From a virus: DNA of 64,000 nucleotides. The stretch spans positions 1 through 64,000 of IMG/VR virus record IMGVR_UViG_3300048592_000443. One strand, given 5' to 3'. The notes beneath the pieces were generated by a model. The model was given only the letters and a program-made list of their open reading frames with translations. It was not told the origin of the DNA and searched no databases. The translations under genes and the position numbers were made by a program. Below are positions 36,918 through 61,311 of this stretch, in pieces (position 1 is the first letter of the stretch; the number at the start of each line of letters is the position of its first letter).

Positions 36918-36953
36918 ATTATAGCATAGCCGTCAACGTGCGACAGGTCGCAC
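36918..36953 (-). promoter_or_regulatory. Extended -10 promoter with palindromic operator
   Basis: On the minus strand, TTGAC-N5-TGCTATAAT at 36936-36918, with the palindrome GTGCGAC-CT-GTCGCAC (36938-36953) just upstream of it. It probably starts transcription of the genes from 36724 leftward, restarting after the sugar genes. The intervening ~190 bases carry no gene I can support. Confidence 0.6.
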
Positions 36954-37357
36954 TAGCGGGGCGGCACGAACTCCGGCCAGTGCCAGGTGCCGCCGGCCGG
37001 CGCCTCTGTTGCGTCGTGCCAGGCGACCGCAGTAAAGGGCGGCTCGTTCACTGGAAAGACAGTAAGCGCCTGCATAGTCACCTCGCCTACGCCCTCAGGC
37101 ACGGTGAATGCCGGATCGGTGATGATTGCCGGAACATGCTTGTCGCCATACACGAAATGCACAACCCGACCCACGCTCGGAACCTGCTGCGGCTGACCCT
37201 GGTAGGGGTTTGCGATATTCTTCTCACTCACCTTGCGTTTCTCCTGTCGCTTTTTCCACTCATCAGCGGCATACAGCGCGTATGCCGGATCGTCACCCCG
37301 TCTGATGTGCCGATAGTAAATATCCTGCCAGGTGGAAGGGCGGCGCGACACTGTCAC
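36953..37357 (-). CDS. Phage protein of unknown function
   Basis: 134 residues from a GTG overlapping the previous stop. A helical basic N-terminus is followed by a beta-rich barrel-like part (VGRVVHFVYGDKHVPAIITD) and the ending AVAWHDATEAPAGGTWHWPE, a segment I associate with small structural phage proteins. Its role is not known. Its stop codon overlaps a dispersed palindrome. Confidence 0.6.
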   Translation of the reverse strand: MTVSRRPSTWQDIYYRHIRRGDDPAYALYAADEWKKRQEKRKVSEKNIANPYQGQPQQVPSVGRVVHFVYGDKHVPAIITDPAFTVPEGVGEVTMQALTVFPVNEPPFTAVAWHDATEAPAGGTWHWPEFVPPR

Positions 37358-40209
37358 CCCTGCTTGCGCGGGCGCCCGCGCTGCTTGTGCTGCTGCGCCT
37401 TGTTCTCGACGGCCCGATCAAGCGCCGCCTTGTCGAATGCCGCCGCGATCTCTGCGGCATCTGCGACTGGCGCATCGTCGTCACTCGCCGCCGCCGCGCG
37501 CTCTGCGGCAAACTGCGCCGGGGCGGGTGCTGTGACGCGCTGTGCGGGCTCAGGAGCGGCGATAGGCGCCGGGGGCGGCTGATGCGACACGGGCGCGGGC
37601 GCGGGGCTCTCAGCGGCGTCTAGCGCCCTCCGAAAGCCGATGCCCTCCATAAAAGCAACATCTTCATTCCAGACGGCGATTAGGCGCTGATCGCCACCGT
37701 AGGTGTAGCGCACGGGTCGCCCGTCAACGCGCTTCGTGCGGCTTTGCACGTTGGTCGTACCGGCCTTGTTGCCGGTATACTCCATAAGGGTCTGGCCCGC
37801 TTGCAGGTCCATACTCATGATCTCCCCTTCCGTGAGTGACTGTCGTATTCGCATCAAGGCCGCGCCAGACGGCCCGCAACCGCATGCCATCGGTTTTACT
37901 CCCTCGTATCTGCCCCGGATCAGCGGTGCAAGTTTCTCGCCATTGGCCCATGCCGCATTCCGTTGCGTGCCTGAATACTTCCGATAGCCGAGCAAGGCGC
38001 CGGGTTGCCTGACACCGCAGAAACCACGGGCGGCGAGCTTCGCGAAGAAATCCCAATCTTCCCAACCCGGCAACGCCTCGTCAAAGCCGTCAACCGCTCG
38101 CGCCCATTCGGTAGGGACAAGAGCGGTAACGGCGTGCTGACCCTTCACGAACCAGGCCTGCGGGTCATACTCTGGCGCTTGGTCCTCCCACGGGTCGCGC
38201 CCCTGTTCAAAGTTGACCCAATCCGAGTACACATACTTGCCGGTCAAGGCTTGCTTTTTGAACATCAGGCGCAGCGCATCAGGATCGGCTAGCCAATCAT
38301 CGGCATCAAGGAACAGGACCAGCGGCGCAGTTGCGGCATGCAACCCCAGGTTGCGCGCGGCGGCAGGCCCGCGCCCGCCCTCGGTCTGCAACACCTTGCA
38401 GAACGGGTATGCGGGCAGATCAAGATCCTCGCCGCTGTCATTCACGACAATACATTCCCATTGGCGATAGGTCTGCATCAGCAGGCTATCAATTGCGCCG
38501 GGCAGGTAGCGGGCGTGGTTTGGCCCAACGGGAATGATGACGCTGATCAGCGGTCGCGCGTAACTCAGGACCGTGGGCGGCTTCTCGGAGGGTGCTGCGA
38601 ACGGGAATTGACGGTCGCGCATCCAGGGGTGATAGCCCGAATAGTCGAAATAGCGCCGTGTCTTACTGGCGCCCCCCGCGTGATTGCGATACCAGATCCA
38701 TGGCTCGTCTGCCACCTTGCGCGCGGCGTAGCCGACTGAGAGCCCGCGCGTATAGAACTCGGCATCTTCACCCGGCGCAAACACCTGACGATAGCCGCCG
38801 GCCCGTTGCCAGAGTGAGCGCCGGAACATCGCCGCCGTTGGCACACAGGTGCGCGGGGGATTGCCCGGCGTGCTCTGATGCTCCCAATCAAAGGCGGGCG
38901 GGAATGCCGAGGGCGTGACCCTGCCATCGTCGGCAAGCAAGCCAAGGCCAGTATACGCAATGCCGAGGGCGCGATCTGCTTTCAAGGCGGCGCGGCAGAC
39001 CCGAATATAGTCAGGTGCGAGTTGATCATCTGCGTCGAGACAGATCACATACTCGCACTCGGTTGCCGCAACGCCGTTGTTTCGCGCGGCGGCTACACCT
39101 TGATTGGACTGAGGAATATAGCGCACGCCAGCGGCGGCATGCACCGCTAGTGCATCAAGCGCAACATCATCGGTATGGTCTGTGCTGCCATCATTGACAA
39201 TGACAATTTCGTCAGGCGCATCAGACTGCACTAGCAGACTGTCAACGGCGCCTTTCAAGTATTGACCATAGTTATAACTGGTCACAACCACACATACCCG
39301 GTGCCGCTCGCGCGCCTTCTCCTCTGCGATGCGATGGTACAGATCAACATAGGCGCGCATGGCCGCGTCCCATGTGCATGATACGCCTGTGATTGCGGCA
39401 TTCTGGCTGTACTGCTGCCAGTTATCCATCAGCGCATAATAGCCCTGGTATAGCCCCTCGGTGTCGCCGGGCTCGACAAGCCAACCCGTAATACCGTGTT
39501 CTACCAGATCGGACGTGCCACACCAGCGATAGCCGAGGATTGGCACGCCGGCCGCCATCGCCTCTAGCGTGCCAATGCCAAATGTCTCAGGCGTCGTTGC
39601 GAGGTATACCGAGGCGTGTCTGATGAACGTCCGCATTTTGTCGTGAGGCTGCACGCCAATCACGAACAGGGTTTCAGGTCGCGTGCCGGCGTCACCAAAG
39701 GTCGTGATGACTGGCACGCCGCGCCGCGCAAGCGCACAGGCCGGGCGCGGGTCGCATACGTCACTGCTACGGCTCTTATTCCACAGCGCATAGCCGCGCC
39801 GCTCTTCTCTCGACAGGGGTGCCCACTCGGCCGGGTCAATGCCATGGCCGATGACGAGCGGATCGAGGCGCATATCGCGCTTGAACGTCTCTGCGACCCA
39901 GGGCGAGGGAACGGTGATCACGCGAGCGCCGCGCGCCGTCGCCGCAATACGCTTGTTCGCCTCGTAATGCCAGGCCTGATACTTCTCGTGCGGCAAATCC
40001 TCAACATACAGCCCGTGGCAGTGCAGCACGTCAACGTTGCGCCCGTTGCTCTCGATATGACAGGCGGTTACATCTGCCGTATCGGGCGATCCGACCAACT
40101 CAACCCCATAGCGCGGCAACAGGTCATACTGCGCCTTGACAATGCGACCAATGCCGTTGTTGTCGTCAACGGCAGTCGGGTCAGGAGTGAGGTGTAGGCG
40201 GAGGGTCAT
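37354..40209 (-). CDS. Three-domain glycosyltransferase (GT4-GT2-GT2) with unknown tail
   Basis: 951 residues. Residues ~1-290 are a GT-B (GT4-like) enzyme with PETFGIGTLEAMAAGVPILG near 206-225. Residues ~300-520 are a GT-A family 2 domain (VVVTSYNYGQYL, NDGSTDHTDD, CLDADDQLAPDYI with DxD). Residues ~545-760 are a second GT2 domain (VIIPVGPNHARYL, FLDADDWLADPD). The ~160-residue C-terminal part is Pro/Ala-rich and ends RGRPRKQG. It would build a short sugar chain on an unknown acceptor, perhaps virion protein, phage DNA or host surface. Confidence 0.85.
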   Translation of the reverse strand: MTLRLHLTPDPTAVDDNNGIGRIVKAQYDLLPRYGVELVGSPDTADVTACHIESNGRNVDVLHCHGLYVEDLPHEKYQAWHYEANKRIAATARGARVITVPSPWVAETFKRDMRLDPLVIGHGIDPAEWAPLSREERRGYALWNKSRSSDVCDPRPACALARRGVPVITTFGDAGTRPETLFVIGVQPHDKMRTFIRHASVYLATTPETFGIGTLEAMAAGVPILGYRWCGTSDLVEHGITGWLVEPGDTEGLYQGYYALMDNWQQYSQNAAITGVSCTWDAAMRAYVDLYHRIAEEKARERHRVCVVVTSYNYGQYLKGAVDSLLVQSDAPDEIVIVNDGSTDHTDDVALDALAVHAAAGVRYIPQSNQGVAAARNNGVAATECEYVICLDADDQLAPDYIRVCRAALKADRALGIAYTGLGLLADDGRVTPSAFPPAFDWEHQSTPGNPPRTCVPTAAMFRRSLWQRAGGYRQVFAPGEDAEFYTRGLSVGYAARKVADEPWIWYRNHAGGASKTRRYFDYSGYHPWMRDRQFPFAAPSEKPPTVLSYARPLISVIIPVGPNHARYLPGAIDSLLMQTYRQWECIVVNDSGEDLDLPAYPFCKVLQTEGGRGPAAARNLGLHAATAPLVLFLDADDWLADPDALRLMFKKQALTGKYVYSDWVNFEQGRDPWEDQAPEYDPQAWFVKGQHAVTALVPTEWARAVDGFDEALPGWEDWDFFAKLAARGFCGVRQPGALLGYRKYSGTQRNAAWANGEKLAPLIRGRYEGVKPMACGCGPSGAALMRIRQSLTEGEIMSMDLQAGQTLMEYTGNKAGTTNVQSRTKRVDGRPVRYTYGGDQRLIAVWNEDVAFMEGIGFRRALDAAESPAPAPVSHQPPPAPIAAPEPAQRVTAPAPAQFAAERAAAASDDDAPVADAAEIAAAFDKAALDRAVENKAQQHKQRGRPRKQG

Positions 40210-40481
40210 TGCGGTAACTCCGGCAATCCTTCACCTTTTTTCAGGCTTTCAATTGCAACTTGCCACGCCGCACGCCATATCATTTGATTGGAGTGCGGCA
40301 TCTTGGCCGCATACGCTACAATGCAAGCGTCATAGGCTTTTACTTCCTCAAATGGCACGCCAAGGCATACCGCCTGATGCCATGTTTGCTCTTGATCTGC
40401 AAGCATTTCATACTGCGCACGTACATCAGCCGGTAAAACTCCCATAGACAGAGCAAGGCTTTGTAGTAATTTTCCGTGCAT
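40206..40481 (-). CDS. Small helical protein of unknown function
   Basis: 91 residues. The ATG at 40481 overlaps the methyltransferase stop; a GTG one codon earlier is possible. Trp- and Met-rich helices, no recognised motif. Overlaps the glycosyltransferase gene by 4 bases, so it is part of the sugar operon. Confidence 0.6.
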   Translation of the reverse strand: MHGKLLQSLALSMGVLPADVRAQYEMLADQEQTWHQAVCLGVPFEEVKAYDACIVAYAAKMPHSNQMIWRAAWQVAIESLKKGEGLPELPQ

Positions 40482-41035
40482 CACTTCACCCTGAATGAAA
40501 TCAGCGTGTCAACAAACGACACTTGCTCATATCTGCCGACAAGCAATTCCTTGACGGCCTTATTGACGCCGTGCCAAACCTTGACTTTTTTCTCGTAATC
40601 ATGAACGGCCATAATGCCGCCCGGCTTGATATGCCGTAACCAGATAGTAATATCGCCTTTGGCCTCGTGGTACTGATGGCCGCCGTCAACAAACACGAGG
40701 TCAACCGGGCCATACTCCCAACGCTTACCGACTTCCTTGCTATCACCGTGGATTTGCGTATGGCGCGGGTCGCCCCAGAAGCCGGCCGATCTGAATACCG
40801 CTTCCTCGCCTTCCAGACAGCCAAAGGGGCTGCTTTCCTTCTGAATGTCGATTGTGAAGAGCCTGAGATCGGGGCGCGCTTCCATAAAAGCCAGGCCTGA
40901 TGTGCCGTTGCCGGCGCCAATGTTTACGATTGACGCATGCTCAGGCAGGGAGCGGGCCATCTCCTGTAGTGCGTCAACCTCGGCATGGGTCAGGTAGTTT
41001 GTCCAATCAACAACGCTATGTGCGGTATGGCCCAT
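40481..41035 (-). CDS. SAM-dependent methyltransferase, probably on sugars
   Basis: 184 residues. Motif I is IVNIGAGNGTSGLAFM near 36-51, the acidic end of strand 2 is FTIDIQ, and LVFVDGGHQYHEAKGDI with IKPGGIMAVHDY matches the small class I Methyltransf_24-type enzymes of glycan loci. It lies between the PLP enzyme and the glycosyltransferase, so sugar O-methylation is the most likely activity. Confidence 0.8.
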   Translation of the reverse strand: MGHTAHSVVDWTNYLTHAEVDALQEMARSLPEHASIVNIGAGNGTSGLAFMEARPDLRLFTIDIQKESSPFGCLEGEEAVFRSAGFWGDPRHTQIHGDSKEVGKRWEYGPVDLVFVDGGHQYHEAKGDITIWLRHIKPGGIMAVHDYEKKVKVWHGVNKAVKELLVGRYEQVSFVDTLISFRVK

Positions 41036-42226
41036 CTATGCCGCCTTTCGCATAACAAGCGAATTGACACCCTCAGTGATCACTTCCGCCATATAGGTAA
41101 TGTCGCTTGCGGTCAAATCCTGGTGCGAAGCGACGTAAAAGCCGCTCCGGTTAACCCAGTCGGCAACCGGATAGTGCGACGGGTCGCACCAATCAGCATA
41201 GGCGGGCTGATTGGTAAGCGGCAACATCTCGCGCGTTTCAATGCCGCGCTCTTCTAGATACGCGCACAGCGCGTCTTTAGGCGCGTGCCTGATGACCAGG
41301 GGCAGCATCATAAAGGCATGGCCGGTGTGCGGTCGCACCTGAGGCAACTGCAACAGGTCAGAGACAGGATTGAGCGCGTGGCACAGGGCCATGGCATTGG
41401 CCCGCCGCTGTGCGATCATCTCCTGCCAGGTTTCGAGTTGTGCGAGGCCTAAGGCCGCTTCTAGTTCGGTAATCCGAAACGAATGTCCGATGCGCTCAAA
41501 GCGAAAGCGCTTGCTGATGACTTCGCGCAACTCGGCGCCGCTCTTGCCGGCGTCGTCGTCAATCGCGATATAGATCCCATCGCGCCCGTGGTTGACGAGC
41601 GAACGCATCACGGCGGCGATCTCAGGGTCATTGGTTGTCGCGATGCCGCCCACGCCCGTTGTCAGCAGGTGCGCAACGTAGGTCGAAAAACAGCCTACGT
41701 CACCCCACGAGCCGGCCGCGCGCCCGTGGTGACTGACAAACATGCATTCGCAACTATCCTCGATAACCGCAAGGCTGTGCTGTGCAGCGAGAGCCTGCAC
41801 AGCCTTCATATCACACGGCATGCCGAACAGGTGTACCGGCAGAATGGCGCGCGTGCGCGGCGTGATGGACGCCTCAATCTGGCGTGCGTCAATGCCGTAG
41901 TAGCCTGGTTCCACGTCAACCAGCACAGGCGTCAAACGGCAGTGCAGCACAACATTAACGGTCGCAACAAAGGTGAGCGACGGCACGATCACTTCGTCGC
42001 CGTCTGCCCACCCGTGCAACTCTTTGAGGGTTTGCAGAGCTACTTGCAGACTTGAGGTGCCGCTATTCGATAGCACGGCATAGCGGCTATCGTGCAAGGC
42101 GGCGAACTGCTGTTCAAAAGCGCGCGACATGGGGCCATAGGAGATGCGCCCGCTGTCGAGTACCTGATTGACCAGCTCGCGCATGCGCTCAGTGGTGCGA
42201 AAGGTGCCAACGCCGATTTGCTTCAT
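41036..42226 (-). CDS. DegT/DnrJ-family PLP enzyme with His in place of the Lys (ColD-like)
   Basis: 396 residues. The fold-type I pattern of sugar aminotransferases is clear: SNSGTSSLQVAL near 54, PSLTFVATVNVV, VIEDSCECM near 155, and GCFSTYVAHLLTTGVGGIAT near 178-197. The PLP-binding Lys normally in this last segment is replaced by His. The same change is known in ColD, a GDP-4-keto-6-deoxymannose 3-dehydratase, so deoxygenation at C3 rather than amination is expected. It is coupled to the gene before by ATGA. One dispersed-palindrome copy lies inside the coding sequence (41174-41189). Confidence 0.85.
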   Translation of the reverse strand: MKQIGVGTFRTTERMRELVNQVLDSGRISYGPMSRAFEQQFAALHDSRYAVLSNSGTSSLQVALQTLKELHGWADGDEVIVPSLTFVATVNVVLHCRLTPVLVDVEPGYYGIDARQIEASITPRTRAILPVHLFGMPCDMKAVQALAAQHSLAVIEDSCECMFVSHHGRAAGSWGDVGCFSTYVAHLLTTGVGGIATTNDPEIAAVMRSLVNHGRDGIYIAIDDDAGKSGAELREVISKRFRFERIGHSFRITELEAALGLAQLETWQEMIAQRRANAMALCHALNPVSDLLQLPQVRPHTGHAFMMLPLVIRHAPKDALCAYLEERGIETREMLPLTNQPAYADWCDPSHYPVADWVNRSGFYVASHQDLTASDITYMAEVITEGVNSLVMRKAA

Positions 42227-42480
42227 TGAAATCTGCCGCCTTCATGACGTGTGCTTACGGGGGGATATACGGTTATGCGCTCACTAAGCGCCGCGATAAT
42301 CAAATCAGCGCACCGCTCTGCCGAACTCCCTACTTCCGGTCGGATTGCATCAACGATGATGCGGCGCCATTCGCGGGTCAAATGCTCGTGCTGCGCCTCA
42401 ATTGCCGCTTTCGCGGCGTCTCCGTACACATCGCCCATCTTATCAACACGAGGAAGCCATAAAGTAAATCTTGTATTCAT
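42223..42480 (-). CDS. Small protein of unknown function
   Basis: 85 residues from an ATG overlapping the previous stop. The sequence has a helical middle (AAKAAIEAQHEHLTREWRRI) and a second helix (ERCADLIIAALSER). It overlaps the ColD-like gene. No family was recognised. Confidence 0.58.
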   Translation of the reverse strand: MNTRFTLWLPRVDKMGDVYGDAAKAAIEAQHEHLTREWRRIIVDAIRPEVGSSAERCADLIIAALSERITVYPPVSTRHEGGRFQ

Positions 42481-44906: not shown

Positions 44907-45010
44907 GAAGTGTAAGGGGTTTAGGGAGATTTTAATTATCATCCCTCACCTATAAGAGTAATTTATAGGTGAGGGATGATTAATCGAAACCTGGCTATCG
45001 CTTTACAGGT
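44907..45010. repeat. Long inverted repeat, copy 2
   Basis: The same ~100-bp palindrome as at 12395 and 59477. Here the inner arms are the best preserved: ATCATCCCTCACCTATAA and TTTATAGGTGAGGGATGAT with a 6-base centre. TGTAAGG and CTTTACA mark the outer ends. It lies in the 383-base gap between the two divergent units and overlaps no gene. Confidence 0.85.
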
Positions 45011-45094: not shown

Positions 45095-45132
45095 AGTATA
45101 GCATTTTTGTCAATCTGTGCGACCTGTCGCAA
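45095..45132 (-). promoter_or_regulatory. Leftward promoter with dispersed palindrome
   Basis: On the minus strand TTGAC-N5-TGCTATACT (45113-45095), preceded by the palindrome at 45117-45132 (one end mismatch). It likely drives 44821 and the sugar/tail operon. It is back-to-back with the + strand promoter at 45140. Confidence 0.62.
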
Positions 45133-45139: not shown

Positions 45140-45168
45140 TAGACAATCATTACCACTAGTGCTATAGT
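45140..45168 (+). promoter_or_regulatory. Rightward promoter with CACTAGTG operator
   Basis: TAGACA (45140-45145), 17-base spacer, TATAGT (45163-45168). The spacer contains the palindrome CACTAGTG at 45154-45161, and CATTACC occurs twice, at 45149 and 45169. It drives the + strand island from 45205. Confidence 0.7.
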
Positions 45169-47512: not shown

Positions 47513-47573
47513 TTGTGCGAACGGTCGCACGAATGGTATAATACGAGGCGTCAGGGCTGCAATCCCTGACGCC
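47513..47573 (+). promoter_or_regulatory. HNH-gene promoter with palindrome and 5' hairpin
   Basis: TTGTGC (47513-47518) and TATAAT (47537-47542) are 18 bases apart; the palindrome GTGCGA-ACGG-TCGCAC (47515-47530) lies over the -35 and spacer. A 10-bp stem, GGCGTCAGGG and CCCTGACGCC (47547-47573), would form at the very 5' end of the transcript. It could protect the mRNA or act as a terminator for the upstream genes. Confidence 0.65.
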
Positions 47574-47607
47574 TCTTTCGTGGCCCTTGTGCAGAAAGGC
47601 CAGCCCC

Positions 47608-48174
47608 ATGAGTGTAGCATATCTCCCCGATCCGTCAATGACCGAGAAGCCCTGCAAGCGCTGCGGCGTCGTGCGCTCTGTTGACCAGTTCAACAAAGAC
47701 AAGCGATACCGAGACGGCTATCAGTCCTGGTGCAAGCCGTGTTATGCCGAATATCACAACCAGCCAGCAGAGAAGGCGAAGCAGAAAGAGCGATACAAGA
47801 GGCGCTATGCTGATCCTGAATACAGGGATAAATATAGGATTAAACAGAATAAGCATTACCGTGAGCGCTGGCGGCAGGATCAAACTTTTAGGAAGCGAAA
47901 AAATGCTAGCAAGAGCATGTTTAACCATGCTCGGCGCACAATCGCAGCGCAAGGCGATCTTACTTTTGAGCAGTGGCAGGCAATATGCGCGTATTACGGT
48001 AATCAGTGTTTGTGTTGCGGCAGGCCCGAAATTACGCTTGACCATATTAAGCCAGTGTCGCGCGGCGGAAAACATACCGCATCAAACGTTCAGCCATTGT
48101 GCAAGTTTTGTAACAGTAGCAAGATGACCAAAACGATTGACTATAGACCTGACAAAGGCGCATGGATAGGCTAA
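47608..48174 (+). CDS. HNH endonuclease with N-terminal zinc finger
   Basis: 188 residues. The N-terminal finger has CKRCG and CKPCYAEYH. The middle is very basic. The C-terminal HNH core has LCCGRPEITLDHIKPVSRGG (first His in DHI), then NVQPLCKFCNSSKMTK with CxxC. The coding sequence is more AT-rich than its surroundings. It lies between two transcription units with its own promoter, so it is likely a mobile free-standing endonuclease. A role in DNA packaging, known for some phage HNH proteins, is less likely so far from terminase. Confidence 0.86.
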   Translation: MSVAYLPDPSMTEKPCKRCGVVRSVDQFNKDKRYRDGYQSWCKPCYAEYHNQPAEKAKQKERYKRRYADPEYRDKYRIKQNKHYRERWRQDQTFRKRKNASKSMFNHARRTIAAQGDLTFEQWQAICAYYGNQCLCCGRPEITLDHIKPVSRGGKHTASNVQPLCKFCNSSKMTKTIDYRPDKGAWIG

Positions 48175-48177
48175 TCC

Positions 48178-50979: not shown

Positions 50980-53013
50980 CTACCTGCGTCGTCTGGCCTC
51001 AACGGCGGCCCGGCGCTCCGCTGTTGCCCGCTCGCGCGCCATGCGGTTGCGCGCATCCTGCAACGCCGCCTGATAGCCGCGCACGTCGCCGCGCTCTAAT
51101 GCCGTCAGCGCACGCCTGCCCTGGTCAGTCGCCTCGCCACCGCTTGTGAAACCGAGCCGAGCAAGCGCATCGTTGCCGCCGCCTGTCTCGGCCGCAGCGC
51201 GCAGGGAGCTGTAATCATCAGGCGAGATGCCAACCTTGCGCGCCGTATCGCGCGCCGTCGCCCGCCGATCCTGGTCGCGCCGTATGGCCCGCTCATCTGC
51301 GGCCGGCTTTGCTTGTTTCGGCTTCTCAGGTGAGTTGCGCGGGCCGCCAGACGAGCCGCCACTAGCAGGGCGTGCGTTGCCGGCGGGGCTGATGTTGCGC
51401 AGGGCGTTCGTATTGTTCTTTGACGGCTTCTCGTCTTTGCCCTTGCCGCCCCCGCCGCCCTTCTTTGGCTTGGCTTCCTTCGGATCTTTCCCTTGCTCTT
51501 TGGCGTTGCGCGCTGCCTCACGAGCCGCCCGGCGCTCCTCAATCTCGCGCCGCCGCTGTGCGCGCTGCTCACCCCTTCCGAGTGCGTCACGCGCCTTGCT
51601 CACATCGCCCGTTCGTGCCGCCGCGATATACGACCGGCCGGCGCCGCTGATGCGATAGGAGCCGTCAGGGTTTTTCTCGACAAGCCCTTTGGCGAGCAAG
51701 GCTTCAGCGTTCTGCGGTGCAAGGGTGATATTTTCGTCAGGGCTGGCAAATTCGAGCAAGGCATCAGACAGACTGGCGCCAAGGCCGGCGCCATCGCCTA
51801 CAGCCTTTTCATTCTCGCGCCGCTTGGCGTCGCGCTCGGCTTCACGCTGCGCCTGCTTTGCAAGCCGCTCTTGCTCTTTCTGTGCGTCTGATTTCTTCGG
51901 CTTACTGCCTTTGCTGCCACCCTTCTTTGGCTTCTTTTTCTTATCGGGGAAGCCGGACAGGTCAAGTTTGAACGGCTTTGACCCACTGGCGCTACCTGCG
52001 CTGGTGAACTTGCCATCGGCGCCACGTTTCAGATTGCCGCGAATAGTCTCGCCCGCGCGAGCGCTATACCCGCGCCCACCGCTCGGCGCAGGGCGGCCGC
52101 TCGCGCCCTCATCGCTTTCGGCTTTAAGCGCGGCGGCAAGGCGCCGCTGTGCTGACTTGCTCTTGCGCGCAACCCGCTCAGGCAGGCGACGAAACGCGGC
52201 CGTATCGCCCGTCTCATCTGCCCAGCGCTCTGCGAACGGCTGACCTGTGCTAAAAGCCCATCTTTGCTGAGCGCGAGAGGCGAACGGCTTGGTTGTGATA
52301 GCCGGCGCTTTTTCTGTCGAAATTTCTCCAGCCATATGCGGCGCAAGCGGCTGCTTGCCGAGTAATGGCAGATCGATGCGCTCACCAGCCCATACCAGAC
52401 TGATAGCCTCAAAGCGCAGCGGCGTGCGCTTGCGCTCCAGTCGCGGCATAGGCGTGCTGGCAGGCAGGTAGCACAACGTAATGTGCGGCGTGAAGCCGTA
52501 GCGATCTTCCAGGGGGATAGCAAGTCCCGAAGCGCGCATATACACCGCTTGCCTGAGCCAAGGCAACTGCGGGCTATTCAGGAGCATCACGAGCGGGTAT
52601 TGCTCGTCATCGCCGGCAAAGGCGCCGTAGCCGTTGACTGCCACCTCAACCGGCTCGGTCATACTTGCCAGCACGGCAAGCGACGAAAGCAGGGCCGCCT
52701 TGCGGTCCTCAATCGCCGCCGCGTCCTGAGCCAGATAGATCAGGGTGCAGTGGTCTGCCTCTTTGGCGAGGCGCCCCGGTATGCCTTCGGTAATCTCGGC
52801 TGTCTGCTCAGGAGTGAGCATCAGCGCGAGCATTGCACCGGGATTAGCGTCAGGGTCAATCTGTACTGCCTTATACACCTGCGCCGCTCGCGCCTTCTCC
52901 GCCCGTCGCTGTGCTGACTTGCTGCGACGCCTGCCCATAGCACTAAGGGCGGGATTGCTGAACAATCCGCCCGGCCCGTGTGCATAGTTCGTATTTGGCG
53001 TCGGATCAGTCAT
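50980..53013 (-). CDS. Virion-associated protein with 2H phosphoesterase domain
   Basis: 677 residues from the ATG at 53013. The N-terminus repeats the capsid motif (TPNTNYAHG, GLFSNPAL at residues 5-23). Residues ~55-230 are a 2H phosphoesterase (LigT-like) domain with HCT at 88-90 and HIT at 177-179. The rest is long, basic and low-complexity, including KKKKPKKGGSKGSKPKK, and a helical end. Position before the protease gene suggests a capsid-internal protein. 2H enzymes cleave 2'-5' or cyclic nucleotide bonds. Confidence 0.75.
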   Translation of the reverse strand: MTDPTPNTNYAHGPGGLFSNPALSAMGRRRSKSAQRRAEKARAAQVYKAVQIDPDANPGAMLALMLTPEQTAEITEGIPGRLAKEADHCTLIYLAQDAAAIEDRKAALLSSLAVLASMTEPVEVAVNGYGAFAGDDEQYPLVMLLNSPQLPWLRQAVYMRASGLAIPLEDRYGFTPHITLCYLPASTPMPRLERKRTPLRFEAISLVWAGERIDLPLLGKQPLAPHMAGEISTEKAPAITTKPFASRAQQRWAFSTGQPFAERWADETGDTAAFRRLPERVARKSKSAQRRLAAALKAESDEGASGRPAPSGGRGYSARAGETIRGNLKRGADGKFTSAGSASGSKPFKLDLSGFPDKKKKPKKGGSKGSKPKKSDAQKEQERLAKQAQREAERDAKRRENEKAVGDGAGLGASLSDALLEFASPDENITLAPQNAEALLAKGLVEKNPDGSYRISGAGRSYIAAARTGDVSKARDALGRGEQRAQRRREIEERRAAREAARNAKEQGKDPKEAKPKKGGGGGKGKDEKPSKNNTNALRNISPAGNARPASGGSSGGPRNSPEKPKQAKPAADERAIRRDQDRRATARDTARKVGISPDDYSSLRAAAETGGGNDALARLGFTSGGEATDQGRRALTALERGDVRGYQAALQDARNRMARERATAERRAAVEARRRR

Positions 53014-53073
53014 ACAGCAAAAGCCGCCTATCTCAGTCGAGACAGGCGGCAAAGCGCGCGGGTGATTGATTTG

Positions 53074-53295
53074 CTACGGTCGCTTCGTGCGGGTCGCGGT
53101 GTATGTGCCGTTGATCAGGTCATCAATAGAAATTTCGCCATAGTAGCGCGTGCCATCGATCTTGCAGTAGTTCCTGACAACCTGCCGGCCGGGGTGATAC
53201 TCGCACCAGAGATGGCCCTGAGGGTCGCGAATGGCAATCCAGCCATCATCGGGCGTACGACCCGTCGCACAGTTTGATTGTAGCAGATTAGTCAA
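53074..53295 (-). CDS. Small protein of unknown function
   Basis: 73 residues from a TTG, since no ATG or GTG exists in frame. WIAIRDPQGHLWCEYHPGRQ and YYGEISIDDL suggest a small beta-fold. A promoter-like motif overlaps its start, so the real start is uncertain. Confidence 0.5.
   Translation of the reverse strand: MTNLLQSNCATGRTPDDGWIAIRDPQGHLWCEYHPGRQVVRNYCKIDGTRYYGEISIDDLINGTYTATRTKRP
53255..53295 (-). promoter_or_regulatory. Promoter-like motif with dispersed palindrome
   Basis: On the minus strand TTGAC-N5-TGCTACAAT (53295-53277), followed by the palindrome GTGCGAC-GG-GTCGTAC (53270-53255), one base from consensus. The arrangement matches those at 54052 and 61273. It would serve the gene at 53074 or the capsid module. 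Confidence 0.55.
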
Positions 53296-54051: not shown

Positions 54052-54090
54052 GTGTGACAGGTCGCACGGATAGTATAGCAGAGCGGTCAA
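54052..54090 (-). promoter_or_regulatory. Promoter with dispersed palindrome
   Basis: On the minus strand TTGAC-N5-TGCTATACT (54090-54072), followed after 4 bases by the palindrome GTGCGAC-CT-GTCACAC (54067-54052). It stands directly upstream of the gp10-like gene and overlaps the stop of the gene at 54087. Confidence 0.6.
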
Positions 54091-54455
54091 GGCGCCGTGC
54101 GGGTCACATCACGCCGAATTAACAGCGTGCCATCGGCAACCGTGAACGTCTCATCGGGCGTGCCATCTTTGGCAATCTGGACATCCCAGACACAACTGGT
54201 GTCAACCGTGAGCGTGTTTGTGCTGTCACGCTCTGGTTGCATCTCGGCAAGGCCGCCCGCCGCGTTCGTAATCGTAATCGTACCGTCAACCGTCGAGAGC
54301 TGAAAGACGGCATCAGCATCAGCCTGGTCAATGCTGGTTTTCGCCGTCATACGGATCGTGTACCCACTCAGGTTGAACGCGGCGCCGTCTTCGTCAATAA
54401 CAGTCAACTCCCATACCGGAGTATCGCCCCGGCGCATCTCTAGTCGCGTGCTCAT
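54087..54455 (-). CDS. BppU-N-like beta-sandwich baseplate protein
   Basis: 122 residues from the ATG at 54455, 9 bases after GGAGG. MRRGDTPVWELTVIDEDGAA, FNLSGYTIRMTAKTSI and a closing TFTVADGTLLIRRDVTRT match the Ig-like N-terminal domain of baseplate upper proteins. It may connect fibres to the baseplate. Confidence 0.72.
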   Translation of the reverse strand: MSTRLEMRRGDTPVWELTVIDEDGAAFNLSGYTIRMTAKTSIDQADADAVFQLSTVDGTITITNAAGGLAEMQPERDSTNTLTVDTSCVWDVQIAKDGTPDETFTVADGTLLIRRDVTRTAP

Positions 54456-54480
54456 TGGCATATGCCTCCGCTACACGCGA

Positions 54481-55047: not shown

Positions 55048-56243
55048 GATGCACTCCTGAGTGTGACAGTCGCGCTAGGATTGCGCGCCGTCACGGTTGC
55101 TGATACCTGTTGCACCGTGAGTGTTGCCGAAGGCGCAGCGCGGTCAGTCACCCGCCCTGTAATCCGCCGTGTCGTAACCGTTGCGCTCGGCATAGTCGTG
55201 CGAACGGTCGCACTGCCGGGCAAGGCTGTAACCAGGGGCGGGAAGATGCTGATGCCGTCAGCCCCGGCCCCCGTCTCCGCAAGAGCCGCCGCGTACAGTG
55301 CCGAGATAGCGTCAAGACCGGCGCCTGTCTCGTCAAGCGTAGCACCCGGCACGGCTGAAACACTATCGGCGCCTATGCCCGTCTCGACAAGTCCAGCCGA
55401 GTAGGCGCCCGCCGTCGCATCTGCCCCTATGCCGCTCTCAGCGGGCTCAGAAGCGTTTGCCCCTGCGGCGGTGTCACTCCCTGCCCCCGCATCGCTCAGA
55501 AGCCCGGACAGCGCGCCTGAGAGGCCATCGGCGCCCGCGCCACTCTCGGCAAGGGTTGCCAGGTATGCGGCGCCCGCCGCATCGGCGCCGGAACCCGTAT
55601 CCGGCGCGGTGACAGCTCCGGCACCGCCCGCCGATACGTTGTCACCCCCTGCGCCTGTCTCTGCCAGGATCGCGAAGAACGCGCCCGCTACGGCGTCACT
55701 GCCGACGCCCGTATCGTCAAACGCGGCGCCCTGCTGTGCCGAGAGCGCATCAGCCCCGCTGCCAGCCTCTACAAGCGTCCCTGCGTAGGCGCCCCCTGCC
55801 GTATCACTCCCGGCGCCCGTCTCGTCGCTCTCCGCCCCGCTCAGCGCGCTCAGCGCGTCAACGCCGGTGCCTGTCTCGGCGATGGTCGCAACGCCCGCCC
55901 CGCTTGCGGCGTCTGACCCGGCGCCACTCTCGTCAACCGTCGCCGCCGAGACAGCGGTCGCGGCATCAGCGCCGCCCCCTGTCTCGGCATAGGTCGCGCC
56001 GTGTTGAGCGGCAAGCGCATCTGCGCCAGTGCCCGTATCAGCGAGCGTGCCCGCAGAGGCCCCCGAGACGGCATCTGCGCCGCTTGCCGTGTCTGCGAGG
56101 GTCGCAGCGTAGTCCCCGGCGCCTGCGTCGGCGCCAGATCCCGTATCATCGGCCTGCGCCGACTGCGCATCTGCCCCGCCGACAAATCCTGCGCCGACTG
56201 CCTCGTCGTCGTCATCGCCGCCGATGTAGAGTGCGTCACTCAC
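55044..56243 (-). CDS. Highly repetitive Ala/Gly/Asp-rich structural protein
   Basis: 399 residues. Residues ~30-330 are about 16 units of roughly 18-19 residues with the core ETG(A/S)G(A/S)DA and a variable Ala-rich stretch. A charged start (GGDDDDEAVG) and a C-terminal ~65 residues of Val/Thr/Arg-rich beta-type repeats (SATVTTRRITGRVT) flank them. Such proteins may form a fibre shaft or a sheath. One dispersed-palindrome variant lies in its coding sequence (55198-55213). Tandem DNA repeats make length variation likely. Confidence 0.65.
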   Translation of the reverse strand: MSDALYIGGDDDDEAVGAGFVGGADAQSAQADDTGSGADAGAGDYAATLADTASGADAVSGASAGTLADTGTGADALAAQHGATYAETGGGADAATAVSAATVDESGAGSDAASGAGVATIAETGTGVDALSALSGAESDETGAGSDTAGGAYAGTLVEAGSGADALSAQQGAAFDDTGVGSDAVAGAFFAILAETGAGGDNVSAGGAGAVTAPDTGSGADAAGAAYLATLAESGAGADGLSGALSGLLSDAGAGSDTAAGANASEPAESGIGADATAGAYSAGLVETGIGADSVSAVPGATLDETGAGLDAISALYAAALAETGAGADGISIFPPLVTALPGSATVRTTMPSATVTTRRITGRVTDRAAPSATLTVQQVSATVTARNPSATVTLRSAS

Positions 56244-56758
56244 GATAGACCGACCCAGTAAGACAGACTGTGCTCAGACATGCCTGAGAGCGTCAAACTT
56301 GACGGGAGCGAGGTCTGCCCCGTGAGGATAGATGCCCAGCGCATCTGTCCGCTGCCGAGACCCAGGTTGCCCGCCGCCGTCGCGATGCCGCGCGCGAAGC
56401 TCGGCCGCGTCGTGCCGTTACACAATATCGCCACATACACCCACCCGACGGCAAGCGTGATTGGCGCGGTGAGCGCGATATGTTTGTAGCCGTTTGATGC
56501 CCAACTAGAGGCCTGATCAGCCGAAACGGCGAGGCGCGTCCCGCCCGTATCGTAGAGGCCTACAAAGTTTTGACCGCTATCCAGTCCTGATCCGGCCGTG
56601 CGGATCACTACATCGATGTAACTAATCTCCTGCTCAACGGGGTTCCAGATCTTAATCAGGTTAATCGATCCGTCGCCCGCTGCCGAGCTGTCGTAGGCGT
56701 TGACAACGTCCCCAGACCAGGCCTTAAGACCGTACCCCCACGGCTCCCAACCGTGCAC
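56240..56758 (-). CDS. Fibre-type protein, downstream half after an amber codon
   Basis: 172 residues from a GTG at 56758. It is beta-rich (KIWNPVEQEISYIDVVIRTA, ALTAPITLAVGWVYVAILCN) like a fibre tip domain. The same frame continues upstream, without any stop, to the TAG that ends the gene at 56789, so the two may be one protein of about 320 residues. No good ribosome site precedes the GTG. Confidence 0.62.
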   Translation of the reverse strand: MHGWEPWGYGLKAWSGDVVNAYDSSAAGDGSINLIKIWNPVEQEISYIDVVIRTAGSGLDSGQNFVGLYDTGGTRLAVSADQASSWASNGYKHIALTAPITLAVGWVYVAILCNGTTRPSFARGIATAAGNLGLGSGQMRWASILTGQTSLPSSLTLSGMSEHSLSYWVGLS

Positions 56759-56788
56759 GGGCGGCAGAACAGCCCGATTATCGCCGTC

Positions 56789-57202
56789 CTACAGATTATC
56801 GGCCGCCACGATAGTTGCGGCCGCCGGCCACCAGACGCGCCAGAGTGGGACATGCCCGGCCGGGGTCGCGGGCGGTAGCGGGTTTGTGCCCGCCGCCCCC
56901 GCCGTCGCCGTCTTCACGCCGGCGCTGCTGACCGAGATCAGCACCCACATCGGGTTGCTGCCGTCAGATGACGGCATGGTCACGTTGCCCGCTGTCCAAC
57001 TCACGTAGACGTTACCTGAGAGCCCGGCGCCGGCTGCGACGGCAACCGTCCCGTCGGGCGTGCCCTGGGGCGTAACAGCGCCGCCCCACAGCACGCCGGT
57101 GCCGTGAACGCCGGCCATCATCGTATCAATGTGCGCCTGCGCCAACTTCGCCTGACGGACGTCAAGGCTGACATCGGCTTTGTTTGGGAGCGTCAGGGCC
57201 AT
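56789..57202 (-). CDS. Fibre-type protein, upstream half ending in an in-frame TAG
   Basis: 137 residues from the ATG at 57202, with AGAAAGG upstream. KADVSLDVRQAKLAQAHIDT and NVTMPSSDGSNPMWVLISVS suggest a baseplate or fibre protein N-terminus. It ends AAATIVAADNL at a TAG (56791-56789), after which DGDNRAVLPPVHGWEPWG continues in frame. See the gene at 56240. This is either a mutation in a single gene or read-through. Confidence 0.62.
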   Translation of the reverse strand: MALTLPNKADVSLDVRQAKLAQAHIDTMMAGVHGTGVLWGGAVTPQGTPDGTVAVAAGAGLSGNVYVSWTAGNVTMPSSDGSNPMWVLISVSSAGVKTATAGAAGTNPLPPATPAGHVPLWRVWWPAAATIVAADNL

Positions 57203-57266
57203 CGCTATACCTTTCTCCGCCTCACGGGCCAATCACCCGCAAGGGCTGTACGAATTAGATTATCCG

Positions 57267-57275
57267 TGCTATAAT
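57267..57275 (+). promoter_or_regulatory. Extended -10 of the Vsr-like endonuclease gene
   Basis: TGCTATAAT, 36 bases before the ATG at 57304, with AGGAG at 57289-57293. This gives the inserted + strand gene its own promoter within a minus-strand operon. Confidence 0.55.
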
Positions 57276-57303
57276 ACGGAAGCAAGATAGGAGAAACAAT
57301 GCT

Positions 57304-58224
57304 ATGACGCAACGGCTTTGCGGACAATGCGAACAGCCATTCACGCCTAGAAAAAATTATTCTAAAGAGCAGCAGGCAAAGCAGCGGTTTTGTTCTGGCG
57401 ACTGCGCCAGAAGGGCCAATGCATTGCTTGCTAAAGGTAAGAAGCCTCGCATCAAAGGTAAGCCGTGCGAGCGTTGCGGGCGCATTGGCTATGATCGAGT
57501 CAATCCGATTTGCCGGTATTGCCAAAAAGAATTGCGTGATCCAGGAGGGGAGCGTAACCCGAAATGGCGCATTACTCGCCGTGTTTACTGGAACGACGAA
57601 AAAGATGCGGTGCTGAAAGAGCACTATTCGACTAAAGGCGCTGAATACTGCGCCAATCAACTTGACATTAGTGCTCAGGCTGTGCGTTGCCGCGCCAATA
57701 GACTTGGCTTGCGTTTGACGAAAGACGCCACTAAGCGCATTGTCAACGCAAAAGCCAAAGAGTATATGATAAAACACAATCCTATGAAAAGAGATGAAGT
57801 CAAAGAAAAGGTTAAAAAGTTTTATAATGAGCATCCAGAAACAAGAGAGGCTGTTAATGCAGCATTGCATCGTGGACAGGCCGAGTTGCAACGCCGCAAG
57901 GTGAGTAAACTCGAATTGGCTTTGCGTGTTATCCTTGACGGCTTTGGCGTTTCTTATGAAGCTTCCGTAGAGATTAAGCCGAATTTTATTGTTGACATAC
58001 GCATTGGTCAACTGATAATTCAAGCCGATGGCGATTACTGGCACGGCCATTCGCGTTTTGAGCCGCTCACCGAAAGGCAGCAAAAACAAAAGCAGCGCGA
58101 CGCAGCCCAGGATGATTACTTGCGCGCTTGCGGTTATACTGTTGCGCGTATATGGGAAAGCGATATGAGCGCTGATAGTGTTTTGCATATTCTGGATATC
58201 CATGCTATACCGCGCGCGGCCTAA
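57304..58224 (+). CDS. Vsr-like (EDxHD-type) homing endonuclease
   Basis: 306 residues. Two zinc fingers lead: CGQCEQPF with CSGDC (6-35), then CERCG with CRYCQKEL (56-78). A Myb/SANT-like HTH (NDEKDAVLKEHYSTKGAEYC) follows at ~97-135. The C-terminal catalytic part has VDIRIGQLIIQADGDYWHGH near 239-258 and CGYTVARIWESDM near 279-291, the Asp, His and Trp-Glu pattern of Vsr-fold nucleases such as I-Bth0305I. It is antisense to the structural operon and more AT-rich. The 3' end overlaps the convergent minor-head gene by 20 bases. Confidence 0.8.
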   Translation: MTQRLCGQCEQPFTPRKNYSKEQQAKQRFCSGDCARRANALLAKGKKPRIKGKPCERCGRIGYDRVNPICRYCQKELRDPGGERNPKWRITRRVYWNDEKDAVLKEHYSTKGAEYCANQLDISAQAVRCRANRLGLRLTKDATKRIVNAKAKEYMIKHNPMKRDEVKEKVKKFYNEHPETREAVNAALHRGQAELQRRKVSKLELALRVILDGFGVSYEASVEIKPNFIVDIRIGQLIIQADGDYWHGHSRFEPLTERQQKQKQRDAAQDDYLRACGYTVARIWESDMSADSVLHILDIHAIPRAA

Positions 58225-58822
58225 CAATATGATCGCCTTCCAGCATCGGGCAATCCTTGCAATGGTTTTCCGGCTTTGTCATAGTTCTTGTGACTATGCC
58301 AGTTCCGTCGCCATTATCAATGACATCGCTTAAAACACAACCGCAATTCCCCAGACAAGTTTGCCGACCCGGCAAGATGCGATCCGGTATTTCCCAACCT
58401 GCCAGCCTTTGCTCAAAATAGAATGGCTTTATGCTTGTGGCGTAGAGGTTCGCCCTGGCCGCGATAGCCGCCGGGCTCATATCGCCGCTCCTGATGTCTA
58501 TCACGAAGCCTGAGAGGTATTCGAGCTGCCGGTTGACTGCGGCCTGAATGTCCTGCTTCTCAGCACGGCTTAGCCGCTGCCGGCTGATGAGCGGCGAGTT
58601 AGCCGGGATGTTCAACCGCTCTGCCGTCGCCGCGATGTAGGCTGCCGTGTGCGCCCGTAGCAAGTGCTCGCGCATCTCGCGCTGCCAGCGGTCAACGTTG
58701 CCGCTCGCGATCAGGTCGCGCGTGCTGGCCTGGATTGATGCCAGGTTCAGGCCGATCAGGCGGTCAAGCGTATCGCCCGGCGCCTTGAGGGCGACAACGG
58801 CCATTTCGAGAGCGGCTGTCAT
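58205..58822 (-). CDS. MuF/SPP1 gp7-like minor head protein
   Basis: 205 residues. A helical N-terminal part is followed by a C-terminal zinc-like pattern, CLGNCGCVLSD and ENHCKDCP, which recurs in the MuF C-terminal domain of head morphogenesis proteins. Its place downstream of the portal gene fits. The start overlaps the previous stop (ATGA). Confidence 0.72.
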   Translation of the reverse strand: MTAALEMAVVALKAPGDTLDRLIGLNLASIQASTRDLIASGNVDRWQREMREHLLRAHTAAYIAATAERLNIPANSPLISRQRLSRAEKQDIQAAVNRQLEYLSGFVIDIRSGDMSPAAIAARANLYATSIKPFYFEQRLAGWEIPDRILPGRQTCLGNCGCVLSDVIDNGDGTGIVTRTMTKPENHCKDCPMLEGDHIVRPRAV

Positions 58823-59073
58823 CAGGCGCCCACATAGGCAGGCACGAGCGTGCCGCCGCCGCTATCGTCGTCGTCATTGTCGCGGCTCACTTCGATCTGC
58901 ACATCAAGCCGCTGCCAACCTGAGCCGTAGTCAATCTGCCAACAGGCAATCCAGGCCACGAGGTTTGCCCACGGCTGCAAGAGCCCGTCAGGTAGGAAGC
59001 GACAGGCAAAGAGCAGGTAGTAAGCCCACGGGCGGCGGCATCGGATTGTGACCGTCTGATGTGATTGCGCCAT
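58822..59073 (-). CDS. Small protein of unknown function
   Basis: 83 residues from the ATG at 59073, 5 bases after the previous stop; a TTG at 59109 would be in the overlap. Aromatic-rich (WAYYLLFACRFL, WANLVAWIACW), with a very acidic stretch DNDDDDSGG. The upstream AGGTAGCACAAATGG leader matches that of the gene at 59079. Confidence 0.58.
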   Translation of the reverse strand: MAQSHQTVTIRCRRPWAYYLLFACRFLPDGLLQPWANLVAWIACWQIDYGSGWQRLDVQIEVSRDNDDDDSGGGTLVPAYVGA

Positions 59074-59078
59074 TTGTG

Positions 59079-59450
59079 CTACCTGTCGTGCAATCTCGGT
59101 TGACCGCAAGTAGGACAGGGATACTCACCCGATGGCCCTGTATCAGGATCGTGAACAGGACAGCCGCTCTCAGGCACAAAGCCGTACGGCATCTGCCAAC
59201 CGCAGGCAAGCTCGCACGACTTGAGCGGCGCAGGGGTGATATGGAAACTCTCGCCGGCCCCATAGCCCTGTGCGTCGTATGTCTCCCATTTGACTTGGAA
59301 GCCGCTATCAGACCGCTCAATTCTCAGGCGCCAGCGCTCGCCATACTCGGCCGTCAGGCAGTCGTGAAGCATCTGCACAGCAGCGGAGATAGTACGGACA
59401 TAGGGCGATGGCCTGTGAACATAGCCACTGTCAGGTGTCTGATTGTCCAT
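59079..59450 (-). CDS. Small protein with C-terminal zinc ribbon
   Basis: 123 residues. The first half is helical and beta mixed. The second half has CELACG, CPVHD and YPCPTCGQPR, enough Cys and His for a zinc site. It is the first gene after the portal and the third long palindrome. Its function is unknown. Confidence 0.6.
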   Translation of the reverse strand: MDNQTPDSGYVHRPSPYVRTISAAVQMLHDCLTAEYGERWRLRIERSDSGFQVKWETYDAQGYGAGESFHITPAPLKSCELACGWQMPYGFVPESGCPVHDPDTGPSGEYPCPTCGQPRLHDR

Positions 59451-59476
59451 TTGTGCTACTTTCTACCTGTTACCGT

Positions 59477-59585
59477 GAAGTGTAAAGAGTTTTCGGCCTG
59501 TTTGAATTATCATCCCGCTCCTATAAGAAATTAATATATAGGCGAGGGATGATTAATCGAAACCTGCTTATCCCTTTACACTTCG
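59477..59585. repeat. Long inverted repeat, copy 3
   Basis: GAAGTGTAAAG (59477-59487) pairs with CTTTACACTTC (59575-59585); the inner arms TTATCATCCC and AGGGATGATTAA are also complementary. The right arm encodes the last codons and TAA of the portal gene on the minus strand. It fills the 125-base gap between portal and the next gene. Confidence 0.85.
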
Positions 59586-61258
59586 CTCCGCTGTAGCGCT
59601 GCCTCAGCCCATCTGAGGGCGTCATCATAGATCGCTGAGATCTCATCTTCGGTGATTTCACCCCCTGCCGGATCTGCTTTGACCGCATGCGGCGTCCCTG
59701 GCCCGCCCTCCTCTGCATACCCGCTTTCGGAAGGGTTGACAGCCGGCGCCTTGAGCCCGCTTAACACGTCGCGCAGGCTTGGCTCTGTGGCCGGCGTCTC
59801 GGCAACGCGCACGCTCTCTGCCTCACCTTCCTCTAGCGGCTTCTCATCGTCGCGCAGCTCGTCTTGTGGCGTGGTGTCGTCTGCGGGTAGAAACTCGCGC
59901 GGGATCAACTCCTCGTCAACCATGATCTGTAGTGCCTGCCCTGCCGAGAGCACGCCCTTTTCAACCAGGGTCGTGAGGGCCTTTGCGCGCATATCAAACA
60001 CCTCGGCCTTGGCTTTCTTATCTGACAGGCTCTCGCCCTCCCAGACAAACTCAACCGTCTGCGGCAAGAGGTTCGAACCAGCCCAATGCACCCACCATTT
60101 CAGGAAGCGCGAGAAGCCGGTATCTTCGGCTTGCTCGGCCTCAACCTCTGCCGTGCGCCCGCTGTTGAGCCCTGCTGGCGCGGGTTGCAGGTCGCGCGAG
60201 GGCAGGCCAAGGGCGTTTGCGTATTCGAGCCGGGTATCTTCACGCTCCTGTTGCGGTTCAAACCCGTCAGGGATCTCGGCAATCGGAATGCGATGGCCCG
60301 TGATGCCCGCGTCAGGCTTGATGCCAGGGATCACCACGACGCCGCGATATTGCTGCTGATTGCGGCTTCTGGCCTGATCCTGGCTGCTCGCCATTGCGGC
60401 TTCGAACTGCGATTGCATGATGCCGCTGACGAGATGTATCTCTTTGGGCTGTGAGCCGGTTATCTTCTCGGCAAGATACCGCTCCATACTGGCATCTTTG
60501 AAAATGGTCTGGTACACCCGATGAGCAGCACAGATGCCCGTGCCGCGCAGTTCAGATCGCGGGCTCGTCAGGTCGCTTGTCGCCCCTACCTGCCAACGCC
60601 AGAGCAGATGATAGCGGCCCCACAGGTCGTAATACATCACGGGAAAGTTGCCCGCATGTACCTCGTCAGGGCGAATGTTCCAGTAGGCGGCAAGCGTCTC
60701 GCGGTATGGGTACAGGTCAACGTCGTGCATCCTGGTACAGCGCACGCTGTCGAGATGCTGAATGCCAAGCGGGCGCCCTACGGGCTGTAACTGCCCGTTG
60801 CGCCCGCGCCTGACCTCCAGGGTTGACCAGATGACTTCACAAAATCCGCCGTTGTTGGTCAGGGCGTAGTCAGTCAGGAATTGGGTCAGGAAGTTAATCC
60901 AACCCTTACCTTTGTTGGCATTCAGCAAAAGCGAACGGGCGCGGTCTGTGCGCTGCTCACTTCCTGCTACGTCGCGGACGGTCCAATCCAGCGATGCCAC
61001 CTTGCCGATAGCCTTGGCAACGGCATTGGCCCACTTCGCGCTGTGGTCAATCGTACTGCTCAAAATGTAATCGCCCGCGCGCGTCCAACGCGGCGGGAGA
61101 TCAATCGGCAGGACTGTTGACTGGCGCCCGTAGATTGACGGGAAGTAGAAGTGCAGTACGCCGCCGGGTGCGCTTGGCTCTCGGCTGACAAGCGATGCAT
61201 CGCCGTCAAACCGGGTAATGCTGTGGGCGTGCAGTTCGTCAACAGAGGGCTGTGTCAT
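59576..61258 (-). CDS. Portal protein
   Basis: 560 residues from the ATG at 61258 (a TTG two codons earlier is possible). The pattern of DUF935/SPP1-type portals is visible: HSAKWANAVAKAIGKVASLD, TDYALTNNGGFCEVIW, and YANALGLPSRDLQPAPAGLN near 345-365, with an acidic C-terminus. It lies directly after terminase. Portal forms the dodecameric DNA gate of the capsid vertex. A promoter with the dispersed palindrome lies just upstream. Confidence 0.88.
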   Translation of the reverse strand: MTQPSVDELHAHSITRFDGDASLVSREPSAPGGVLHFYFPSIYGRQSTVLPIDLPPRWTRAGDYILSSTIDHSAKWANAVAKAIGKVASLDWTVRDVAGSEQRTDRARSLLLNANKGKGWINFLTQFLTDYALTNNGGFCEVIWSTLEVRRGRNGQLQPVGRPLGIQHLDSVRCTRMHDVDLYPYRETLAAYWNIRPDEVHAGNFPVMYYDLWGRYHLLWRWQVGATSDLTSPRSELRGTGICAAHRVYQTIFKDASMERYLAEKITGSQPKEIHLVSGIMQSQFEAAMASSQDQARSRNQQQYRGVVVIPGIKPDAGITGHRIPIAEIPDGFEPQQEREDTRLEYANALGLPSRDLQPAPAGLNSGRTAEVEAEQAEDTGFSRFLKWWVHWAGSNLLPQTVEFVWEGESLSDKKAKAEVFDMRAKALTTLVEKGVLSAGQALQIMVDEELIPREFLPADDTTPQDELRDDEKPLEEGEAESVRVAETPATEPSLRDVLSGLKAPAVNPSESGYAEEGGPGTPHAVKADPAGGEITEDEISAIYDDALRWAEAALQRSEV

Positions 61259-61272
61259 TGGCAATGCCTATC

Positions 61273-61311
61273 GTGCGACGGGTCGCACAGGTAGTATAGC
61301 ATGCCGCGCAA
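61273..61311 (-). promoter_or_regulatory. Promoter with dispersed palindrome before portal
   Basis: On the minus strand TTGCG-N5-TGCTATACT (61311-61293), followed after 4 bases by a perfect GTGCGAC-CC-GTCGCAC (61288-61273). The ATG of portal is 15 bases further. The 102-base gap contains no gene. Confidence 0.62.

Follow-up and report, generated by a model that had tools for sequence, protein, structure and literature searches.

Gene organization and copies of the motif

The viral record IMGVR_UViG_3300048592_000443 consists of 69,946 bases, and the window analyzed here comprises its bases 1 to 64,000. The minus-strand units that lie behind copies of a recurrent TTGAC-containing motif carry tail, aminotransferase/glycosyltransferase, RNA-ligase-like, portal and N-acetylmuramoyl-L-alanine amidase genes. 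The tail operon (24963-36724, minus strand) includes the genes of the distal tail protein (26572-29079) and the tape measure (29083-32604), and the portal protein gene (59576-61258, minus strand) has a weak match to PHROG 146 together with portal homologues in the related phages G005, G006, G013 and G014. On the plus strand we found helicases, Gam-like, RecT-like and primase-like proteins, a methylase and MazG.

The motif has the consensus TTGAC-N5-TGCTAYAMT and occurs six times in the record, always on the minus strand, with five copies in the window and one beyond it. All five minus-strand positions listed in an earlier note on this DNA (36918, 45095, 53277, 54072 and 61293) were recovered: the copies at 36918, 45095 and 54072 match exactly, the one at 53277 has a single mismatch (TGCTACAAT) and the one at 61293 carries a TTGCG box. 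Candidate promoter 1 (36918-36936, TTGAC-N5-TGCTATAAT) heads the tail operon, which runs from 36724 down to 24963, and candidate promoter 2 (45095-45113, TTGACAAAAATGCTATACT) heads the operon from 44571 to 37354 with the aminotransferase and glycosyltransferase genes. These are followed by candidate promoters 3 (53277-53295, TTGACTAATCTGCTACAAT), 4 (54072-54090, TTGACCGCTCTGCTATACT) and 5 (61293-61311, TTGCGCGGCATGCTATACT), the last of which has the degenerate box and heads the portal gene. The sixth copy, TTGACCAATATGCTACAAT, is located just past the window end at record positions 65638-65656.

Using a weight matrix, the six sites scored between 21 and 29 bits and the best remaining site in the record 14 bits; with the same matrix, one of 20 simulated genomes contained a site above 18 bits, with a maximum of 23.5. 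Analysis of all spacings from 0 to 25 between TTGAC and TAYAHT resulted in five occurrences at spacing 8, two at 17 and none or one at each other distance. TTGAC-N8-TAYAHT was present on average 0.075 times per simulated genome (maximum 1), and the full motif did not appear in any of 200 dinucleotide-model shuffles. Neither the five spacer bases nor the flanking sequences are the same from copy to copy, so the six sites do not represent one duplicated stretch. Judging from gene content, the TTGAC class is most likely late, and the late promoter proposed in the earlier note is supported by this content as well as by strand and conservation.

Extended -10 elements and promoter class

All six sites contain TGC-TAYAMT, which corresponds to an extended -10 element, a TGN followed by a TATAAT-like hexamer. 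The earlier statement that TTGAC is not a normal -35 is supported, since with spacers of 15 to 19 no site has more than three of six matches to TTGACA. Two other readings of the sites were discarded: the GG-N10-GC signature of a sigma-54 (-24/-12) promoter is absent from all six, and inspection by eye revealed no TATAAT-like hexamer about 17 bp downstream of TTGAC that could serve as a hidden normal -10. Taken together, the six sites look like extended -10 promoters that lack a usable -35.

The record also contains promoters of the ordinary -35/-10 type, which have this extended -10 too. They comprise the two sites with spacing 17 (47638, minus strand; 69589, plus strand) and a sigma-70-like promoter (45140-45168, plus strand, TAGACA-17-TATAGT), which is divergent from candidate promoter 2. 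The occurrence of these promoters alongside the TTGAC class indicates two promoter classes in the record. Among the proteins scanned, which were a subset of the genes, no phage-encoded RNA polymerase or sigma factor was detected; the region 20051-20917 of the window contains several helix-turn-helix (HTH) motifs and a weak match to sigma region 4.

The dispersed palindrome

A palindrome, GTGCGACNNGTCGCAC, is found with no or one mismatch within 6 nt of all five motif copies in the window, the chance being 0.014 per random site. Just as the earlier note described, two palindromes are upstream of the motif and three downstream. The upstream ones are a copy at 36938-36953 (GTGCGACAGGTCGCAC), 1 nt from candidate promoter 1 at about -42 to -27, and a copy with one mismatch at 45117-45132, which is placed between candidate promoter 2 (gap of 3 nt) and the divergent plus-strand promoter. 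The downstream ones cover the expected start sites of candidate promoters 3 (53255-53270, one mismatch, gap 6), 4 (54052-54067, one mismatch, gap 4) and 5 (61273-61288, gap 4). The sixth motif copy only has the half-site GTGCGAC 3 nt upstream, followed by GGGTTGAC.

Counting up to two mismatches, the record contains about 20 palindromes, most of them away from the motif and often between genes. Exact copies were also detected in two unrelated phages, 25 in G001 (L080-L083, IMGVR_UViG_3300045970_000154) and three in G002 (L084-L085), where they occur without the motif and many of them directly ahead of ribosome-binding sites. No protein common to the phage studied here and G001 or G002 was detected by tblastn or phmmer, and a search of viral contigs for exact motif-plus-palindrome patterns gave no match. 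The link between motif and palindrome, as claimed in the earlier note, stands by position in this phage and does not extend beyond it: the motif copies of the relatives G013 and L094 have no palindrome beside them, and in unrelated phages the palindrome occurs with no motif.

The palindrome is best seen as a separate element, an operator of another regulator. Its presence in unrelated phages would allow for binding by a host protein. Positions over the start site (candidate promoters 3 to 5) or in the -35 region (candidate promoters 1 and 2) would both fit repression. As a short site that is repeated many times between genes across the genome, the palindrome, and the palindrome only, resembles the stoperators of mycobacteriophages, but it differs from them in being symmetrical, 16 bp long and common to phages without a detectable shared protein.

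Terminators and a shared element in the leaders

At three of the six sites (1, 3 and 6) a strong hairpin with a T-run is located just before the start codon, with 7 to 12 nt between the start of the T-run and the start codon. The three stems begin roughly at +25, +147 and +221. The site 1 terminator (36724-36765, minus strand) consists of a 34-nt hairpin of -20.9 kcal/mol followed by TTTTT, and the ATG comes 7 nt from where the T-run begins; a palindrome copy (36741-36756) is contained in the stem. The site 3 terminator (53015-53050, minus strand, -23.1 kcal/mol, then TTTT) precedes the ATG of the RNA-ligase-like gene at 53013, and a small ORF (53074-53295) is inserted between promoter and terminator. 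For site 6 the hairpin at record positions 65575-65607 has -12.1 kcal/mol.

No ordinary terminator was found before the gene at sites 2, 4 and 5. The leaders of sites 4 and 5 are short and carry the palindrome where transcription is expected to start; that of site 2 is long, with an inverted repeat of about 100 nt but no T-run on the strand that is transcribed.

An 18-nt element, CCGCSCGCTTTGMCGSCT, is located at the 5' foot of each of the three leader hairpins and has exactly three matches genome-wide, the next best sequence having three mismatches. On the minus strand it is present as CCGCCCGCTTTGACGGCT at 36762-36779 (site 1) and as CCGCGCGCTTTGCCGCCT at 53044-53061 (site 3).

A further promoter-terminator leader was observed on the plus strand of the window at 47515-47580. 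Here, the palindrome is followed by TGGTATAAT (47534) and directly by a terminator-like hairpin, AGGCGTCAGGG...CCCTGACGCCT, which precedes an HNH gene at 47608.

Conservation in related phages

Terminase searches of IMG/VR identified G005, G006, G013 and G014 as relatives with syntenic late genes. The motif search in related phages that the earlier note had suggested as a check was positive: the motif is kept in G013 and in L094. G013, whose TerL is 45% identical, has three copies, two of them with a spacing of 8 (TTGACAATCATGTTATAAT, TTGACACGCATGGTATAAT) and one with a spacing of 9 (TTGACAAGTAGTGCTATAAT), and simulations for this genome average 0.1 for the looser form of the motif. A terminator precedes the gene at all three copies, and the copy at 15394 reproduces the order of site 3 in the window, with promoter, small ORF, terminator and an ATG about 10 nt further on. 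The single copy in L094, also at spacing 9, is situated between the portal gene and the next late gene and is followed by a terminator. Thus, two of the four copies in relatives have a spacing of 9 instead of 8.

The TTGAC motif is absent from G005, G006 and G014. Their late genes have promoter-terminator leaders with repeated sequences of their own, including a conserved element (CAGAGC...) just before the leader terminators of G005 and G006. Leader elements CGCAGAGCYNACAGGCGCGCG and CCAGAGCGAGTGAGCGCG are repeated directly before the leader terminators of G006 (L107-L108; 3983, 6651 and 19910) and G005 (L105; 2977, 5754 and 13954), about 10 to 16 nt below the -10. Terminator leaders with differing boxes indicate that the layout is common to the clade and that the box varies.

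The TerL of the window (61361-62788) is 61 to 63% identical to L005 and L096-L098 over the N-terminal 270 residues only, and other contigs match it over the full length at 42 to 54%, a pattern suggesting that the nuclease half has undergone domain shuffling. L005, a candidate relative found via TerL, was set aside: it is related in the N-terminal half of TerL only and has neither motif nor palindrome. A TerL search of cellular genomes found no relatives.

A putative loading site for an antiterminator

If TATAMT occupies -12 to -7, the start being assumed from the position of the -10, TTGAC is located at -25 to -21. The box has this antiterminator register at five of the six sites and also in G013 and L094 (-26 to -22 where the spacer is N6). 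AlpA binds GGGACG at -25 to -20, each base of which is required (PMC9371919); the key C of TGAGCA, subsite 1 of 21Q, is at -21 (PMC6606751). AlpA carries the polymerase past intrinsic terminators immediately upstream of its target genes, which begin 26 to 247 nt after the start site (PMC7969949), and a gene transfer agent likewise has its putative GafZ element between -10 and -35 (PMC11150451). Because both the box position and the terminator placement match, we regard TTGAC as a candidate antiterminator loading site. On balance it is probable that the six sites are late promoters at which an antiterminator of the Q/AlpA type loads at the TTGAC box. Given the box position and a terminator between promoter and gene, this fits better than the recognition with an activator suggested in the earlier note.

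According to this model, RNA polymerase of the host, carrying the main sigma factor, would start at the six sites via the extended -10, without a -35. A phage-encoded antiterminator (lambda-Q, 21Q or AlpA type) would dock at the TTGAC box, positioned around -25 to -21. As long as this protein is absent, the polymerase would stop at the leader terminator before the first gene (sites 1, 3 and 6). Once made, the antiterminator would bind the box, board the polymerase and allow read-through into the late genes. The same box at six promoters would give separate late operons one signal, and the palindromes would be operators of a different regulator, overlaid on five of the promoters. Weighing against this model are the lack of an ordinary terminator at sites 2, 4 and 5, the spacing of 9 in half of the copies from relatives, and the failure to find either a clear -10-like pause element at the start site or, by sequence, an antiterminator gene.

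The AlpA promoters of Pseudomonas aeruginosa (alpB, PA0807) are similar in that one regulator serves several promoters, a box of 5-6 bp occupies -25 to -20 and the first gene is directly preceded by an intrinsic terminator (PMC7969949, PMC9371919). GGGACG and TTGAC share GAC at -23 to -21, preceded by GG there and by TT here. In contrast to AlpA, there are six promoters here, no -35, no AlpA-like protein found and no evident pause element: by eye, the site alignment showed no shared -10-like pause hexamer near the start, and a TAT near the expected start is common to four sites (site 2 of the window and the three in G013). The pR' promoters of lambda-type Q systems (lambda, 21) likewise combine late genes, an element between the -35 and -10 positions and a leader terminator, and 21Q subsite 1 has the same register as TTGAC. 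However, these systems depend on pR', a late promoter whose pause sequence resembles a -10, compared with six promoters here, and 21Q requires a further subsite (-17 to -12), whereas the box here has no second copy. The GafZ element of the Caulobacter gene transfer agent also combines a putative box between -10 and -35 with a phage-like structural operon and terminator read-through (PMC11150451), but has a single target promoter and is helped by IHF and GafY. In T4 middle promoters, consisting of a MotA box plus TATAAT, a phage box similarly takes the place of the -35 ahead of a good -10, whereas MotA/AsiA acts at initiation and not at termination. The MotA box is further upstream than the TTGAC box.

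Alternative explanations

A phage protein acting at the stage of initiation, either an activator or a sigma-remodelling factor of the T4 MotA/AsiA or P23-45 gp39 type, might read TTGAC instead of a -35, with the terminators being a separate matter. The missing -35 and the strong extended -10 are in agreement with this idea, as proteins of this kind push sigma region 4 aside and work in favour of promoters with an extended -10 (PMC7403470), and so are sites 2, 4 and 5, which have no ordinary leader terminator. Yet the box is only 8 bp away from the -10, within the usual spacer, and the family-wide terminators between promoter and start codon would be left unexplained; we therefore consider this explanation rather unlikely. 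Still less probable is an RNA-based or leader-binding antitermination via CCGCSCGCTTTGMCGSCT, in which TTGAC would only strengthen the promoter. The leaders are short, all three copies of the 18-nt element are found at the foot of a leader terminator, and G005 and G006 have their own element in front of their leader terminators. Against this, the element is missing at sites 2, 4 and 5, which do have the TTGAC box, and G013 and L094 have kept the box, in the register of Q and AlpA.

The proximity of a palindrome to every motif copy in the window, together with the half-site and GGGTTGAC at the sixth, could also be explained by a single compound operator, TTGAC plus palindrome, of a repressor or activator. 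We regard this as very improbable, since the palindromes are on either side of the motif at varying distance, most of them lack a motif, the relatives have the motif without a palindrome nearby and the 25 and three palindromes of the unrelated phages have no motif. That the sites arose by chance, or are decayed remnants of a single repeat and play no part as promoters, is hardly credible: only the functional positions are conserved, with spacer bases and flanks differing between the copies.

Candidate regulators

The antiterminator model calls for a Q- or AlpA-like protein in the genome; no Pfam or PHROG match to such a protein was found among the proteins scanned. To our knowledge, the known Q proteins have no sequence similarity to each other, and the absence of a match is consequently weak evidence. 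A possible regulator is encoded at record positions 66011-66643 (L004:6011-6643), adjoining the first late promoter and divergent from it. The protein has 210 amino acids with a confidently modelled C-terminal helix-turn-helix, within single-sequence models of two HTH proteins that are mostly of low confidence. It has no detected relatives, and Foldseek returned nothing below an E-value of 0.9. The 18-nt leader element provides a second possible regulatory target, which the antiterminator model does not use.

It is quite possible, if short of probable, that the TTGAC box is read by a new, sequence-unrelated class of antiterminators that loads at several late promoters per genome, and that the box was swapped between lineages of this uncultured clade while the promoter-terminator-gene layout was kept. 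The box-loaded antiterminators known to us are each limited to one or a few promoters. If true, a clade with one loading box at several late promoters would offer a rule for finding unknown antiterminators by their box, and its natural pairs of box and leader would form a variant set for testing how a box selects its protein.

Additional repeats and reading frames

The window also contains a plus-strand ORF (57304-58224, 306 amino acids) with weak matches to Vsr/DUF559 nucleases, which is antisense to a long minus-strand ORF. It has its own AGGAG site and TGCTATAAT at 57267, and is likely to be an endonuclease gene that was inserted here.

Neither the Rfam scan nor the tRNA scan of the window gave a hit. 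The inverted repeat of about 100 nt mentioned for the leader of candidate promoter 2 is a second dispersed element, AATTATCATCCCTCACCTATAA...TTATAGGTGAGGGATGATAATT, which is present at four intergenic places (window 12396-12492, 44911-45007 and 59485-59588; record 66720-66750). Another inverted repeat, with 36-nt arms and a TGTACGTACA core, is found at 24707-24789 of the window, at the end of the plus-strand block and next to the convergent junction.
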